Shown here: positions 40,093 to 64,000 of the stretch, piece after piece
Layout: each line of letters begins with the position of its first letter
Position numbering within the stretch: position 1 is the stretch's first letter
Source: Alphaproteobacteria bacterium
Lineage (GTDB): Bacteria; Pseudomonadota; Alphaproteobacteria; Rs-D84
Reading direction: 5' to 3'
Assembly (NCBI GenBank): GCA_017427405.1
Contig: JAFRSV010000004.1
Coordinates: 41,876 to 105,875, forward strand
DNA: 64,000 bases
The notes under the pieces: generated by a model
Databases searched by the model: none
What the model was told of the DNA's origin: nothing
The model's input: only the letters and a program-made list of their open reading frames with translations
Translations under genes and position numbers: made by a program

Positions 40093-40986
40093 ATGAACAA
40101 GACATATTCTGGATTTATCGCGATTGTGGGACCGACAAACGCCGGCAAAAGCACCTTGTTGAATCAAATCATGGGACGCAAGGTTTCGATTGTTTCGCAT
40201 AAGGTTCAAACCACGCGAACGAACCTGCGTGCCGTGAAAATGGTTGGTTCGCGCCAATTGATTTTTGTTGATACGCCCGGGATTTTTCGCCCCGCCCGTC
40301 GCCTTGACCGCGCAATGGTTTCGGCGGCGATGACGGCGCTTTCCGATGCGGATGCGGTTTTATTGATTATCGACGCGACCAAGGGGATTACCGATACGGT
40401 GCGCGAAATCATCGGAAAAATCCGCGAACATAAAAATCTGTTTGTTGCACTAAATAAAACCGATGCGGTAAAGAAAAGTGAACTTTTGCCGATTGCCGCG
40501 GAATTAAACGAAATGGCGGATTTTCGTGAAATCTTTATGATTTCGGCAATGAAAAATGACGGCGTTGCGGAAATGTTGGCATCAATGGCGGCGGTTATGC
40601 CGGCATCGCCATATTTGTTTGATGCGGCGGATGCAACCGATGTTCCGGATAACCTGTACCTTGCGGAACTAACGCGGGAAAAGGTTTATCGTTATATTCA
40701 CCAAGAATTGCCATATCACATAAATGTCGTGACGGAACATGTTGATGTCGATACCGATGGGGTGCTTGATATTTATCAGAAAGTTGTTGTGCAAAGTGAC
40801 GCGCATAAAAAGATTGTGATTGGTCGCGGGGGAACGCAACTTAAAAAAATTGGAACGGCGGCGCGGCATGATATCCAAGATCAATGGGGCGTGAACGCGC
40901 GCCTGCATTTGTTCGTGCGTGTTGAACCGGATTGGGAAAACACCGCCGAAAATTACACTGACCAAGGTTTAGAGTTTAAGAGATAA
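40093..40986 (+). CDS. era: GTPase Era
   Basis: This ~297-residue GTPase is needed for 30S subunit maturation. It has G1 GPTNAGKST, G3 DTPGIF, and G4 NKTDAVKKS. The C-terminal KH domain has KKIVIGRGGTQLKKIGTAARHDIQ, which binds the 16S 3' end. ATG 40093 fits the family start; it lacks a ribosome site and is close behind a TATTGT box. The in-frame ATG at 40072 would add seven atypical residues. Confidence 0.94.
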   Translation: MNKTYSGFIAIVGPTNAGKSTLLNQIMGRKVSIVSHKVQTTRTNLRAVKMVGSRQLIFVDTPGIFRPARRLDRAMVSAAMTALSDADAVLLIIDATKGITDTVREIIGKIREHKNLFVALNKTDAVKKSELLPIAAELNEMADFREIFMISAMKNDGVAEMLASMAAVMPASPYLFDAADATDVPDNLYLAELTREKVYRYIHQELPYHINVVTEHVDVDTDGVLDIYQKVVVQSDAHKKIVIGRGGTQLKKIGTAARHDIQDQWGVNARLHLFVRVEPDWENTAENYTDQGLEFKR

Positions 40987-41109
40987 AAGGACATAAAATG
41001 AAAATTTGTATGTGAGAACGAGTGTAAACGAAGTTCGAACAACTACAAATTTGCGCGCAAGGCGCAAGCCGAGCGAAAAAATATAAACAAATAACAAAGG
41101 AATCAAAAT

Positions 41110-41511
41110 ATGAAAGTTAATCAAAATCTAAAAATCAATCCGAAATATAAAATATTGGCATTTTTGCTTTTGCTTGGGTTGGCTGGGTGCCGAAAGCACA
41201 AAAATGTAATCGTCGATATCGGAACAATTGATAACGAACCAGTATTGGTATTACGAGATGTTGAAACCGACATTGAAAGAATTTATAAAGCCATCGATGA
41301 TGACTATAAGTACAGTGCTTTGGGTGATATTGTGACAGTTCGTGTTGGGTTCGGTTGGTTGAATGAAAGAAGTTATAAGAACCGTAGAGTATTCAATTCT
41401 AATGAGGTTTGGTATGTAAATGATAGTATTCGTCCACGCAAGAAATTCGAAGAAGCAAACAAGGAAGATGCAAATTTTAATAGTTTGAGACAAAGAATAC
41501 AAGGTCGATAA
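41110..41511 (+). CDS. Small lipoprotein of unknown function
   Basis: This 133-residue protein has a lipoprotein signal (LAFLLLLGLAGC) followed by a charged domain with VIVDIGTIDNEPVLVLRDVE. There is no recognised family. AAAGGA precedes the ATG. Upstream, AAATTTGTA and TACAAATTT (41002-41050) form an inverted repeat around a five-codon frame. The gene is AT-rich and may be recently acquired. Confidence 0.65.
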   Translation: MKVNQNLKINPKYKILAFLLLLGLAGCRKHKNVIVDIGTIDNEPVLVLRDVETDIERIYKAIDDDYKYSALGDIVTVRVGFGWLNERSYKNRRVFNSNEVWYVNDSIRPRKKFEEANKEDANFNSLRQRIQGR

Positions 41512-41521
41512 TTACAAATAA

Positions 41522-43402
41522 ATGCTGCACACATCGGATTTTGATTTTGAATTGCCACCGGAACTAATCGCATCGCACCCATTGGAACGGCGCGATGCAT
41601 CGCGTATGTTGGTGGTGCAAAGTTCCCCTCCGTTGGAGGGGTGCCCGCAGGGCGGGGTGGTCAGAGACACCGTAAATTACCGCACATTACCGTTTAATTC
41701 AAACCTAAAACAACGCGCCCGTGAATTACGGCATGCGGGCAGTTTGCCAGAGGCGTTACTCTGGAACGAAATAAAAAATAAAAAATTAAACGGTCTTGAC
41801 TTTGATAGGCAAAAAATAATTGGAAATTACATAGTTGATTTTTTCTGCGCATCAAGGTTTTTGGTAATCGAAATAGATGACAAAACGCACGACTTTAAAA
41901 TCGAATATGACAAAGCGCGTGATGAATATTTGAAATCATTGCACCTTAACGTGATACATGTTTCTGCTGCGGACGTGTTGAAAAATCCACATGGTATTTT
42001 TCTCTGGCTCTCTAACCACCCCGGCACTTCGTGCCACCCCTCCACAGGAGGGGAACTTACCCTTTCTGACAAACATATTCGTGATTTTTTGGATTACTTG
42101 CGCCCCGGCGATGTTGTTGTGTTCAACAATTCGCGGGTAATTCCGGCGCGCTTTGATGCGGACGGTCACGAAATCACATTGCATACCGCGGTTGATGATA
42201 AAAATTGGTGGGGCCTGTGTAAAAAGTTTAACAAAATAAACATTGGCGACACACTTACCATGACGGACGGCACAACAATAACCGTTATGGATAAAGACGA
42301 CGAAAGCGGTCTGTTGTTGCGATTCAATTGTGATAATGTTTTTGATGTGCTGAACCGTGTTGGTAAAATGCCATTGCCACCGTATATGAAACGCGACGCC
42401 GAAATCGCCGACCAAACACGCTATCAAACGGTCTATGCGGACCCACTTGGGTCAATGGCGGCACCGACGGCGGGTTTGCACTTTACCGATGAATTGATGG
42501 CGGAAATTGAAAAGCGAGGCGCAAAAATAGTAAAAATCACATTGCATGTTGGCGCGGGAACATGGATGCCGGTTAAAACTGAAAACCTTTCCGAACATAA
42601 AATGCACAGTGAATGGTGCCAAATCACACCTGCCCAGGCGGAAATTATAAACGCCGCGACGCGTGTAATCGCCGTCGGCACAACTTCGCTTCGCACATTG
42701 GAATCCGCCGCGTCAAGTTCCCCTCCTTTGGAGGGGTGGCGGGTAGCACCCGCCGGGGTGGTTAGAGACACCGCAAACTATCGCACATTACCATTTAACC
42801 CAAAATTAAAAGAGCGTGCACGCGAATTGCGTCATGCTGGCAGTTTGCCCGAGGCATTATTGTGGAACGAAATCAAAAATAAAAAATTAAATGGTCTGGA
42901 TTTTGATAGACAGAAAATAATTGGAAATTACATTGTTGATTTCTTTTGTGCGTCAAAATTTTTAGTTATCGAGGTTGACGATAAAACCCATGACACAAAA
43001 GTTGATTATGATAGGCAGCGTGATGAATATCTAAAATCTTTAAATCTTGCAGTGATACATATCCAGGCCAAAGATGTCTTGCAAGACCCTCACGGTGTTT
43101 TTAACTGGCTGTCTAACCACCCCGGCACTTCGTGCCACCCCTCCAACGGAGGGGAACGTGCGCGTGTTGCACCGTTTTGTGGTACGACGGATATTTTTAT
43201 CACACCGGGATATAAATTCCGTGCGGTTGACGTGTTGCTGACGAATTTCCACCTGCCGAAATCAACACTCTTTATGTTGGTGTCGGCGTTTAGTGGCCTG
43301 GCCGAAATGAAGGCCGCATACGCCCACGCCGTCGCCGAAAAATATAGGTTTTTCAGTTATGGCGATTGTTGTTTGCTGTTTAGAAAGGATTCAGAATGGT
43401 AG
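41522..43402 (+). CDS. queA: QueA with two in-frame DUF559-element insertions
   Basis: QueA (S-adenosylmethionine:tRNA ribosyltransferase-isomerase) makes epoxyqueuosine in tRNA. The normal enzyme is about 340 residues; this frame has 626. Family sequence is intact at residues 1-33 (SDFDFELPPELIASHPLERRD), about 180-398 (YLRPGDVVVFNNSRVIPARF; GSMAAPTAGLHFT; ITLHVGAGTW; VGTTSLRTLE) and about 547-626 (TDIFITPGYKF; LLTNFHLPKSTL; AYRFFSYGD-like end). Residues 34-179 and 399-546 are two mobile DUF559 elements. No frameshift or stop interrupts the frame. tgt, which inserts preQ1 in the same pathway, lies 0.5 kb downstream. Confidence 0.88.
   Translation: MLHTSDFDFELPPELIASHPLERRDASRMLVVQSSPPLEGCPQGGVVRDTVNYRTLPFNSNLKQRARELRHAGSLPEALLWNEIKNKKLNGLDFDRQKIIGNYIVDFFCASRFLVIEIDDKTHDFKIEYDKARDEYLKSLHLNVIHVSAADVLKNPHGIFLWLSNHPGTSCHPSTGGELTLSDKHIRDFLDYLRPGDVVVFNNSRVIPARFDADGHEITLHTAVDDKNWWGLCKKFNKINIGDTLTMTDGTTITVMDKDDESGLLLRFNCDNVFDVLNRVGKMPLPPYMKRDAEIADQTRYQTVYADPLGSMAAPTAGLHFTDELMAEIEKRGAKIVKITLHVGAGTWMPVKTENLSEHKMHSEWCQITPAQAEIINAATRVIAVGTTSLRTLESAASSSPPLEGWRVAPAGVVRDTANYRTLPFNPKLKERARELRHAGSLPEALLWNEIKNKKLNGLDFDRQKIIGNYIVDFFCASKFLVIEVDDKTHDTKVDYDRQRDEYLKSLNLAVIHIQAKDVLQDPHGVFNWLSNHPGTSCHPSNGGERARVAPFCGTTDIFITPGYKFRAVDVLLTNFHLPKSTLFMLVSAFSGLAEMKAAYAHAVAEKYRFFSYGDCCLLFRKDSEW
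41621..42056 (+). mobile_element. DUF559 element 1 inside queA
   Basis: This 436-bp element is bounded by near-perfect ~40-bp inverted repeats that each fold on themselves (AGTTCCCCTCC..GGAGGGG at the left, the complement at the right). It encodes a DUF559 domain in the queA frame: LRHAGSLPEALLWNEIKNKK, then IGNYIVDFFCASRFLVIEID with the D..E..D nuclease-like residues. DUF559 is related to Vsr-type endonucleases. The insertion lies in the loop after LVVQ, where QueA proteins vary in length. Confidence 0.85.
42716..43157 (+). mobile_element. DUF559 element 2 inside queA
   Basis: This 442-bp element has the same ends and the same DUF559 domain as element 1 (high identity; 6 bp, i.e. two codons, longer). 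It inserted between LESAASS and GERARVAP, another variable loop. It has the longer left end containing GGCGGGTAGCACCCGCCGGG, which also occurs alone at 63580. Confidence 0.85.
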
Positions 43403-43860
43403 AAAATAAAAAGTATCAAATTGACCTTAGAAAAGGTCGTGTAAATTGTCCAAATATAGAACAACGTATTGGGGATTTACTGGCTAAATATGCATACAAT
43501 TTCGCAGTTGATTATGGATTTGAATTGTATGAATCTGATGTTCAATGGATAGAAAATAATATCTCAAAAAATTCACAAAACAACATTCGTGATATATTCT
43601 GGCAAGTTGATGATGCATATACAAATGGAAAAAAACATAGTAAATTTTTGTTGGATTATCTGGCCACATTTTTTGAACAATTCATCGATACACCTGATAT
43701 TCCGGCCAATGTGAATCGACTTTTAATTTATATCGTTGGGAAACATTTTGCACATTACAAAATTAAAATAAATTCTGCGCCTTATCAACATTTTTCACAG
43801 AAAAGTGGATACGAAAAACTCGCGGGGGGTAAAAATAAGTATAATCAATGTGCCATATAA
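43396..43860 (+). CDS. Hypothetical AT-rich protein
   Basis: This 154-residue, mostly helical soluble protein is of no recognised family. Its start overlaps the queA stop by 7 bp (translational coupling) and it lies 34 bp before tgt. Codon use is AT-richer than in queA and tgt, which suggests acquisition. Confidence 0.6.
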   Translation: MVENKKYQIDLRKGRVNCPNIEQRIGDLLAKYAYNFAVDYGFELYESDVQWIENNISKNSQNNIRDIFWQVDDAYTNGKKHSKFLLDYLATFFEQFIDTPDIPANVNRLLIYIVGKHFAHYKIKINSAPYQHFSQKSGYEKLAGGKNKYNQCAI

Positions 43861-43894
43861 AATATAATGTTGCCAGATAAAAGGAAAAAACAAA

Positions 43895-45001
43895 ATGTCA
43901 CTGAAATTTAATCTTATCACAACGGATGGAAATGCGCGGCGGGGCGCGGTGGAAACCGCACACGGAACATTTCAAACGCCCGCGTTTATGGCGGTGGGTA
44001 CGGCGGCAACGGTCAAGGCGTTGACGATGGACCAGGTTCGTGCGACCGGAACAGAAGTGATTTTGGGCAACACATATCATCTGATGATGCGGCCCGGCGG
44101 TGACTTGGTGGAAAAGATGGGTGGCCTGCACAAATTCAGTGGTTGGCACGGGCCGATTTTGACCGACAGTGGCGGTTTTCAGGTTATGTCGCTTTCGAAC
44201 CTGGTAAAGATGAAAGAAGAGGGCGTAGAGTTCACTTCGCACATTGACGGCGGGATAAAACACTTTTTGCGCCCCGAAGATTCCGTGCATATTCAACACC
44301 AACTGGATTCAAATATCACAATGGTTTTGGACGAATGCCTGCATTTACCGACAACGCGCGAACGCGCGGAAAAAAATGTTGATATGGTGACGCGTTGGGC
44401 GGCGCGCAGCAAAAACGCGTTTGTCGACCGCCTGGGCTATGGTATTTTCGGCATTGTCCAAGGGGCCGATTTCCCCGACCTGCGTGAAAAGTCCGCACGG
44501 GAACTGACCGCTATTGGGTTTGACGGGTATGCAATCGGTGGACTTGCGGTTGGGGAACCGCAAAGCGTTATGTTCGATATGATTGGCGTGGTTGCACCAA
44601 TGTTGCCAACGGACAAACCACGATATTTAATGGGCGTTGGAACACCACTGGATATTTTGGGTGCGGTGGAACGCGGTGTTGATATGTTCGATTGTGTTAT
44701 GCCAACGCGCGCGGGCCGCACCGCGATGGCGTTTACGCGCCATGGCACAATGAATATGCGCAACGCGAAATACCGCGACGATAACGCACCATTGGACGAC
44801 AAATGTGGTTGTCCGGCGTGTAAACTTTCGCGCGCGTATTTGCACCACTTGATAAAGTGCAACGAAATTTTGGGTGCCACATTGTTGACTGGGCACAACC
44901 TTTGGTTCTATCAAGACCTGATGCAGGGCATCCGCGAAAGCATAGAGCAGGGGCGTTTTGCCGAATTCAAGGCAGAGTTTATAAAGAATTATATGGGTTA
45001 G
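43895..45001 (+). CDS. tgt: tRNA-guanine transglycosylase
   Basis: This 368-residue enzyme exchanges guanine-34 for preQ1 in Asp/Asn/His/Tyr tRNAs. It has TPAFMAVGTAATVKALT, the catalytic TDSGGFQVMSL (about residue 90), GGLAVGEP, a second catalytic Asp in RGVDMFDCVMPTR, and zinc ligands CGCPACKLS..H. AAAAGGAAA precedes the ATG. It works directly upstream of QueA. Confidence 0.96.
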   Translation: MSLKFNLITTDGNARRGAVETAHGTFQTPAFMAVGTAATVKALTMDQVRATGTEVILGNTYHLMMRPGGDLVEKMGGLHKFSGWHGPILTDSGGFQVMSLSNLVKMKEEGVEFTSHIDGGIKHFLRPEDSVHIQHQLDSNITMVLDECLHLPTTRERAEKNVDMVTRWAARSKNAFVDRLGYGIFGIVQGADFPDLREKSARELTAIGFDGYAIGGLAVGEPQSVMFDMIGVVAPMLPTDKPRYLMGVGTPLDILGAVERGVDMFDCVMPTRAGRTAMAFTRHGTMNMRNAKYRDDNAPLDDKCGCPACKLSRAYLHHLIKCNEILGATLLTGHNLWFYQDLMQGIRESIEQGRFAEFKAEFIKNYMG

Positions 45002-45007
45002 TTCTCC

Positions 45008-45078
45008 TCCTGTGGAGGAGTACGGCGAAGCCAGGCCTGTCGCGCCGTAGCCTTGGCATAGGCGGAAGGTGGCCTTTT
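45008..45078. repeat. Palindromic intergenic element
   Basis: CTCCTCCTGTGGAGGAG folds into a 7-bp hairpin. It is followed by TACGGCGAAGCC and CGTAGCCTTGGCATAGGCGG, which contain further short inverted repeats. It resembles the widespread short palindromic repeats of bacterial genomes and is not identical to the queA elements. Confidence 0.5.
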
Positions 45079-63542: not shown

Positions 63543-64000
63543 ATGCGAATCGGATTTAGTCATTATAACGCGGAGACAAAGTTCCCCTCTAGAGAGGGGT
63601 GGCGGGTAGCACCCGCCGGGGTGTGGTTTGCCACCATTGTCGCGCTGTTTATCGCCATGCCGGCGTTCGCCGACCCAACGCCGTTGGACCGTAAGACTGT
63701 ATCGTCCAAGGCATACGTTGATACATCGGTTGAAACACGACAAAACAAAATCCCGGCCGCAAATCCGAATAATACAAATATCGGTGTTTCGGTTGTGATG
63801 TACACCGAAGACGGCGATGGTGAAATTGGCGAACGCGGAATATACGATAACCCCGCCAATTATACCGCGGGCACAGACGCAAATAAATTGGTGACCGCAT
63901 CGGCACTGAAAGGCAGTGTCACAAATTTACCCACAATGGAAACATCAAAATTGACCTGTGCGAACCAAAATGATGGTTGCACCCTGTGGACCATCGAAGA
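63543..64000 (+). CDS. Secreted surface protein, paralogue of 10848-11840 (end cut by window)
   Basis: At least 152 residues. The signal-peptide core (WFATIVALFIAMPAFA) is followed by LDRKTVSSKAYVDT, RQNKIPAANPNN, a GERGIYDNPANYTAGTDANKLVTASAL repeat-type segment, and the family end LTCANQ..CTLWTIEE. Only the stop codon seems to lie beyond the window. Between the first 12 residues and the hydrophobic core, a 44-bp palindrome related to the queA elements adds PSREGWRVAPAGV in frame. Confidence 0.7.
   Translation, partial: MRIGFSHYNAETKFPSREGWRVAPAGVWFATIVALFIAMPAFADPTPLDRKTVSSKAYVDTSVETRQNKIPAANPNNTNIGVSVVMYTEDGDGEIGERGIYDNPANYTAGTDANKLVTASALKGSVTNLPTMETSKLTCANQNDGCTLWTIE
63580..63623. mobile_element. 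Solo end of the queA-type element, in frame
   Basis: AGTTCCCCTCT..AGAGGGGTGGCGGG and CACCCGCCGGGGTG equal the left end of DUF559 element 2 in queA, without the nuclease domain. It is a 44-bp, self-complementary, MITE-like remnant that keeps the reading frame open. Confidence 0.7.

Follow-up and report, generated by a model that had tools for sequence, protein, structure and literature searches.

Mobile elements in conserved genes are usually expected to destroy them or to be spliced out. The queA gene of a gut alphaproteobacterium (genome of 1.06 Mb, 95% complete), located at 41522..43402 on the + strand of the window, which is the whole 64,000-nucleotide stretch of DNA analysed here, raises the question of how such a gene can hold two inserts and keep its frame open over 626 codons. 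In this frame, Queuosine_synth was matched in three stretches (375.6 bits) and DUF559 (PF04480) in two (180.7 bits) by Pfam, and the NCBIfam QueA model (PRK00147) scored 404.1 bits, above its cut-off of 324. Element 1 (41620..42058, + strand, 439 bp, AAGTTCCCC...GGGGAACTT) lies in QueA loop 1 between MLVVQ and LTLSDKHIRD, and element 2 (42715..43159, + strand, 445 bp, AAGTTCCCC...GGGGAACGT) lies in loop 2 between RTLESAA and RARVAPFC. They are separated by a QueA core (42059..42714, + strand) and followed by the C-terminal part of QueA (43160..43402, + strand), which ends with FFSYGDCCLLFRKDSEW. On the B. subtilis QueA structure (1yy3), the first insert maps between residues 36 and 40 and the second between 269 and 278. 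Downstream on the + strand, tgt (queuine tRNA-ribosyltransferase, 43895..45001) gave a full-length Pfam match and provides the gene context; a hairpin, GTTCTCCTCCTGTGGAGGAG, occupies 45001-45020 of the window, starting on the final base of the tgt ORF.

The two elements share a 300-nt block with 79% identity and are each bounded by terminal inverted repeats (IRs) of ~48 bp ending with CGGGGTGGTYAGA. The layout of the repeat is a CCCCTCC-NNN-GGAGGGG hairpin, a variable second hairpin, and then CGGGGTGGTYAGA. In element 1, whose arms are AAGTTCCCCTCC...GGAGGGGAACTT, the left repeat (41620..41668, + strand) reads as hairpin CCCCTCCGTTGGAGGGG, a second short hairpin and CGGGGTGGTCAGAGA; it precedes DUF559 domain 1 (41702..41998, + strand, contig coordinates 83577-83873, E 1.6e-26 against the genome) and the right repeat (42009..42058, + strand). 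Element 2 is built alike, from a left repeat (42715..42767), DUF559 domain 2 (42803..43105, E 6.4e-28 against the genome) and a right repeat (43110..43159), all on the + strand. The presence of two IR-bounded, in-frame DUF559 inserts in queA was thus confirmed. The initial annotation had proposed two related elements of 436 and 442 bp within 41621-43157, with repeats of ~40 bp, in two loops of an open 626-codon QueA frame whose translation includes the element ends; our borders differ by a few bases, our repeats are roughly 48 bp long, and the loops, the frame and the translated ends were all recovered.

It had also stated that the inserts are not inteins, and the searches agreed. Pfam matches in the frame up to E = 0.001 were Queuosine_synth, DUF559, MTES_1575 and EABR only, with neither an intein domain nor a Hint domain among them, and no Rfam family, including group I and group II intron covariance models, matched 40900-43900 up to E = 1. 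Across elements, the left IR is translated in three different frames, so that the insert ends vary by frame, and no stops occur in any occupied queA frame of the genus. Intein and intron were therefore rejected, and removal of the inserts by protein or RNA splicing or by ribosome bypassing, for which the bounding inverted repeats could conceivably pair in RNA, is very improbable.

A search of 142 genomes of the same genus ruled out that the element is confined to one genome. QueA was matched in 132 of the 142 genomes and DUF559 in 59, and DUF559 was found in frame in QueA in 25, with a total of 29 domains, of which 16 occupy site 1 and 13 occupy site 2; one of the 25, G146, has only the end of queA on its contig and gave no QueA match. 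At E below 1e-20, a threshold that leaves weaker matches (~1e-6, some in frames of 1417-1525 aa) outside, the genus holds 79 strong DUF559 matches. Every one of the 33 whose frame exceeds 211 aa belongs to QueA (29) or QueH (4); the frames of the other 46 measure 116-211 aa, and one of these contains a stop. The longest occupied queA frame spans 756 codons, or 718 counted from its start Met. Two loops take up all 29 QueA inserts, one downstream of MLVV or MLVI and the other downstream of LESA, and the positions within loop 1 vary by a few codons. A start codon of its own for DUF559 was considered and set aside: among 26 examined inserts, 18 have no Met between the host and the DUF559 core and 8 have one, in a count that ignores GTG and TTG as possible starts. 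By eye, no target-site duplication was evident at the QueA junctions and no shared motif was seen in the flanks of site 1 versus site 2. In the named-genome scan, which covered the best 80 of 502 confirmed relatives, the IR score was at least 15 in 15 of 21 QueA loci and none was found in 2 of 21.

Occupied QueA was found beside close relatives with empty sites, the comparison that the initial annotation had called for. QueA without DUF559 was seen in 108 of the 132 genomes with a QueA match (part of the 108 were translated). Intermediate states also occur, namely short IR-only inserts in the first loop (G155, G153 and G020), short inserts in a third loop after IPARF (G155 and G013), and probable scars and halves (G098, G118, G143, G145 and G122); G101 and G065 yielded only QueA fragments. 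In G060, two queA matches of full-length range were present on different contigs.

We then asked whether the host enzyme and the insert look functional. Among 20 occupied genomes, QueA had a dN/dS of 0.059 (188 usable pairs out of 190), compared with 0.064 among 34 empty genomes (444 out of 561), and this similarity argues that occupied QueA works, in line with the earlier claim that the host gene is not killed. For lineage A inserts (see below), the median dN/dS was 0.11, from 168 of 325 pairs, the rest being saturated or too close; the two inserts of the genome under study differ from each other with pS 0.80 and pN 0.10. The nuclease-like motif, which we take to be the one labelled EDxHD, was present in 68 of 69 DUF559 domains, the exception being G074 site 2 with R for H. 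Given the low dN/dS of host and insert and the kept motif, both appear functional. An uninterrupted second queA, which the initial annotation had named as a sign of a pseudogene, was not found in this 95% complete genome, where a single QueA match was obtained; the genome also has an insert-free QueH frame of 190 aa. Unchanged QueA dN/dS and open frames argue against a pseudogene, and the same architecture recurs in assemblies that, by their titles, come from many separate studies. Hence, even though the related QueA records are apparently uncultured or metagenome-assembled Alphaproteobacteria, several of them from ruminant guts, a pseudogene or assembly artefact is hardly credible.

The fold of the inserted domain was predicted with AlphaFold2 using QueA with its inserts and an 18-row alignment (mean pLDDT 58.6). 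The DUF559 parts had pLDDT of ~58-85 by blocks, and the QueA part was uneven, with residues 211-280 at 71-91 and both ends under 50. Foldseek with this model recovered QueA structures and matched the insert to 3hrl (E 6e-5, TM 0.75 of the target), which was also the sole solved match of the DUF559 profile by sequence up to E = 1. Weak matches were obtained to the domain of the homing endonuclease I-Bth0305I (E 0.019, TM 0.64) and to Vsr (E 0.15-0.19, TM 0.41-0.49). The model therefore predicts a fold of the Vsr-like PD-(D/E)XK or homing endonuclease type. The Caulobacter DUF559 protein VsrA is described as a Vsr-like PD-(D/E)XK protein (PMC12907096).

Two DUF559 lineages, A and B, occur in QueA of the genus, each at both sites. 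In a tree of 69 distinct domains, from which the G085 site 1 copy was dropped as identical to the G013 copy, one clade (99/99, 26 rows) comprised 25 QueA domains and 1 stand-alone domain. Lineage B (3 rows) came solely from QueA, a four-row clade came solely from QueH, and the remaining 36 rows were stand-alone. When occupancy was mapped by parsimony onto the QueA tree (54 genomes, 20 occupied), at least 9 state changes were required at site 1 and at least 10 at site 2; many forks of this tree are weakly supported, and it holds 54 of 67 fetched queA rows, as 13 were excluded where anchor patterns failed, including the occupied G018, G090, G145 and G159. When the closest DUF559 of other genomes was sought with 23 of the 29 QueA domains, it lay at the same site in 9 cases and at the other site in 14. 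At site 1, different sublineages are found in G143 and G000, whose host genes are separated by dS 0.29. Lineage B inserts at site 1 retain, by eye, the right end of lineage A, from which it seems that one element landed in or replaced the other.

Host and insert identities in QueA were weakly and positively correlated (r = 0.20 and 0.33), so that the pattern is in part one of vertical descent; at site 1, the inserts carried by G000 and G074 diverged like their hosts (224/240 versus 600/642 positions). The lineage B inserts of G013 and G085 were identical at 478 of 480 positions versus 102 of 120 just upstream, and at 239 of 240 positions in the DUF559 core versus 561 of 642 in the QueA core. 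The limits of the identical block lie near the IRs, and the two elements sit at the same position with unmoved flanks. Judged by these identities, this pair is the one clear case of recent transfer in QueA. Together with the turnover on the QueA tree, this move between species supports the earlier suggestion that the element spreads.

Low insert dN/dS might also mean that DUF559 was domesticated, that is, added to QueA and restriction-modification (R-M) enzymes for the benefit of the host and kept by selection, and the identified hosts (see below) are indeed mostly enzymes acting on DNA or tRNA. Yet the 108 genus genomes with DUF559-free QueA, the many state changes, the likely scars and half elements, the replacement by other sublineages and the IR ends kept in many copies fit this poorly, and we regard domestication as improbable.

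The repeats are not limited to queA. In the genome under study GTTCCCCTCC occurs 18 times, 4 of them inside queA, versus 0 for the reversed control, and so is not due to chance. Among the 14 matches outside queA, 7 have no spanning ORF of at least 100 aa and the other 7 are spanned by ORFs of 100-268 aa without a Pfam match; two of the 14 (L013 and L014) are the two ends of one copy. A MITE-like copy, L019, aligns to both ends of element 2. A half element with the hairpin and second hairpin but no DUF559 (63578..63623, + strand) is translated in frame close to the beginning of an ORF running off the window; it reads as KFPSREGWRVAPAGV, N-terminal to a hydrophobic, signal-like stretch. By eye, a TCTGGAA motif was noticed ~10 nt past the right end of seven short copies (L008, L009, L012, L013, L017, L018 and L019), possibly as part of the element or as a target preference.

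In the genus, the hairpin TTCCCCTCN{4,8}GAGGGGTG was found in 53 of 142 genomes, with reversed controls of 0 throughout. Outside the host gene, that is, after subtraction of hits in the host gene where it had been fetched, genomes with DUF559 in QueA had the hairpin in 22 of 25 cases (median 3; G009, G108 and G144 had none outside queA), those whose DUF559 is exclusively stand-alone in 12 of 23 (median 1), and those lacking a strong DUF559 match in 13 of 90. The rank test of the last group against occupied genomes gave p 2e-13, a value inflated by shared ancestry, since only 6 supported independent pairs were available and these gave no significance (median p 0.25). The QueH-insert genomes G124, G081, G141 and G068 had 42, 17, 2 and 0 hairpins. 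In a partial list compared by eye, hairpin loop types in queA agreed with the rest of the genome in G000, G018, G146 and G155, which have many copies, and disagreed in G085, G016, G153 and G159; given this mixed outcome, loop types were not relied on. A second hairpin family, CTCCCCN{2,6}GGGGAGNGG, was searched for in 8 genomes, 5 of them chosen for IR-flanked DUF559, with most hairpins counted on both strands. Counts were 87, 29 and 25 (controls 1, 1 and 0) in G235, G571 and G588, other Alphaproteobacteria with IR-flanked DUF559 in the same genomes, and 5, 3, 0, 0 and 0 in the remaining five. The hairpins in G235 are often paired, ~160-170 bp apart. In the genus, short DUF559-less copies thus co-occur with DUF559 elements.

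Such numbers leave room for a passenger role, in which the IR elements are moved by another enzyme and DUF559 is cargo. IR copies outnumber DUF559 copies in the genome under study and several others, and some genomes are rich in hairpins without a strong DUF559 match (15 in G020 and 13 in G011). That hairpin presence tracks DUF559 presence, that the nuclease-like motif is preserved by selection, and that outside the genus, too, other Alphaproteobacteria combine DUF559 with a repeated hairpin family of their own all speak against this, and a passenger role is unlikely.

DUF559 was also found inside proteins other than QueA. A different lineage is in frame in QueH (epoxyqueuosine reductase) in four genomes (L087, L088, L089 and L090; the QueH identity of L087, L088 and L090 was confirmed by Pfam). 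In sister genera, DUF559 is in frame in QueA (L237, L238 and L251), TsaB (L231 and L244, the latter with an NCBIfam score just under the cut-off), TruA (L250) and RecO (L248 and L257), and G194 by itself contributes four long-frame cases. The QueA cases there include a third DUF559 lineage, F-like by best match, at both QueA sites. In a POR_N protein (L249, also from a sister genus) DUF559 is placed N-terminally, and in the MurB case (L262) it is upstream; both are for that reason uncertain hosts. The IR score exceeded the maximum of 100 shuffles in TruA (62), POR_N, both RecO, both TsaB, QueA L237 and L238 and AsnB L259, marginally in HsdM L260, and not in QueA L251, QueH L087 or HsdR L261.

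Among the best 80 of 502 relatives, at least 34 non-QueA loci have DUF559 in frames of at least 300 aa: 18 HsdR, 5 N6/N4 methyltransferases, 5 type ISP enzymes, 2 HsdS, 1 Fic and 3 without an assigned host, of which 19 were scanned with Pfam and the others were assigned by local comparison. The IR score was at least 15 in 24 of the 34. Two of the type ISP loci, L183 and L187, look like one protein twice. In the HsdR set, the insert sits before the GDRKGGVVWHTQGSGKS segment and forms a gap against EcoR124 HsdR (query 259-484 against chain 267-300). Host and DUF559 identities were uncorrelated (r = -0.18) for 16 of the 18 listed HsdR proteins (120 pairs), and L207 and L165 are 56% identical in HsdR and 92% in DUF559. 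Several HsdR loci among L165-L215 have stacked copies of the IR peptide (NSPPLEGWSQTGVV...) ahead of DUF559. In a sample across phyla, DUF559 was matched at E up to 1e-15 in 108 of 398 genomes. Six of 12 long frames taken from among the matches listed were scanned with Pfam, giving HsdR (L261, with the insert elsewhere than in the named-genome HsdR set), HsdM (L260), AsnB (L259, with its amidotransferase domain split) and MurB (L262), and no host family for L258 and L268; the others (L263-L267 and L269) look by eye like chance frames around stand-alone DUF559. Recurrence within the genus, further host genes and the same architecture in R-M genes of other phyla go beyond the initial annotation, whose overall interpretation was supported.

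An origin from a phage or plasmid was also considered. Six relatives on viral contigs (38-63% identity), 36 plasmid records and 2 phages (all under 60%) were found, so that no near relative of this lineage turned up there, and this origin was set aside.

The range of hosts (QueA, QueH, TsaB, TruA, RecO, HsdR, HsdM, HsdS, ISP, N6/N4 methyltransferases, Fic and AsnB) bears on whether the element chooses its sites. It may insert anywhere, with the loops of QueA and R-M proteins being merely the places where an in-frame copy survives and is expressed and copies elsewhere decaying to short IR copies. Besides the varied hosts, the 14 outside GTTCCCCTCC matches, for which there is no indication of a known gene, and the shifts of a few codons and differing frames in loop 1 agree with such untargeted insertion. 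The use of both QueA sites by each of the two genus lineages and by the third lineage of sister genera, and the near-identical lineage B elements at the same position with unmoved flanks in G013 and G085, agree with it less well, and we rate it slightly below an even chance.

We consider it likely that the inserts represent a palindromic element that is mobile, codes for a nuclease, and persists by being translated within the host protein without splicing. As far as genome comparison can tell, such elements are gained, lost and replaced, host and insert are under purifying selection, one transfer took place in QueA, and host and insert are independent in HsdR. The element would consist of ~48 bp terminal inverted repeats, each with hairpins, around a Vsr-like DUF559 nuclease domain that in QueA mostly lacks an ATG of its own and is presumably read as part of the host protein. 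It would persist because, in frame and in surface loops, it leaves the host enzyme working and obtains transcription and translation of the nuclease from it. If the fused nuclease is active, a break made by it may be followed by repair or a transposition-like step that spreads the element, and the short DUF559-less copies may spread in trans through the same nuclease. QueA loops 1 and 2 could be target sites, beyond mere tolerance; most likely, selection keeps those copies that lie in sense orientation, in frame and in loops, where the host provides expression. Conceivably, low expression of such hosts limits harm. More tentatively, and with some doubt, DUF559 elements in general may be pan-bacterial, non-splicing, protein-embedded homing elements that prefer DNA- and tRNA-modifying enzymes and drive hairpin repeats in trans.

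Against the usual expectation, then, a nuclease-coding element here appears to remain in the protein, repeatedly, in a genome's only queA and in R-M enzymes. If this is true, it offers a candidate enzyme for palindromic in-frame elements, accounts for DUF559 domains scattered in unrelated proteins, and supplies a natural set of permissive insertion loops.

Among known systems, inteins with homing endonucleases are in-frame nuclease inserts in conserved enzymes, present or absent in close relatives, and their hallmarks are a Hint splicing domain and conserved end residues. The DUF559 insert resembles them in being nuclease-like, in frame, in a conserved enzyme and present or absent between close relatives, but it has no reported splicing domain and seems to stay in the protein. 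Like MITEs and REP/RAYT systems, the present short copies are many-copy IR hairpin elements that perhaps depend on the enzyme of a longer copy, and their relation to a longer coding element is seen in L019; the candidate enzyme, however, would be the DUF559 nuclease rather than a known transposase. In fold and sequence, the inserted domain is akin to Vsr-like proteins, I-Bth0305I, VsrA and 3hrl. VsrA is described with a gene of its own (PMC12907096), whereas DUF559 in queA lies inside a host enzyme, is bounded by IRs and shows no sign of splicing. Among the open PMC papers listed by the searches, titles and beginnings of abstracts yielded no description of this element. Rickettsia palindromic elements (RPEs), to which the initial annotation had likened the inserts, are described as palindromic elements of ~150 bp with a conserved peptide, located in frame inside genes and translatable with the host protein (PMC10969869). 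By that description, the likeness holds: the present element is palindromic and is translated in frame in unrelated hosts, QueA, TsaB, TruA and RecO, with IRs, and as the half element at 63578. It differs in being ~440 bp long, in encoding a nuclease-like domain and in having DUF559-less short forms alongside. As for homing, occupied and empty alleles at one site were seen, while spread beyond vertical descent was shown once in QueA and is suggested in HsdR by the independence of host and insert. By analogy, the queA element may work as an RPE would if combined with a homing endonuclease, which makes the spread of RPE-like elements a testable question.
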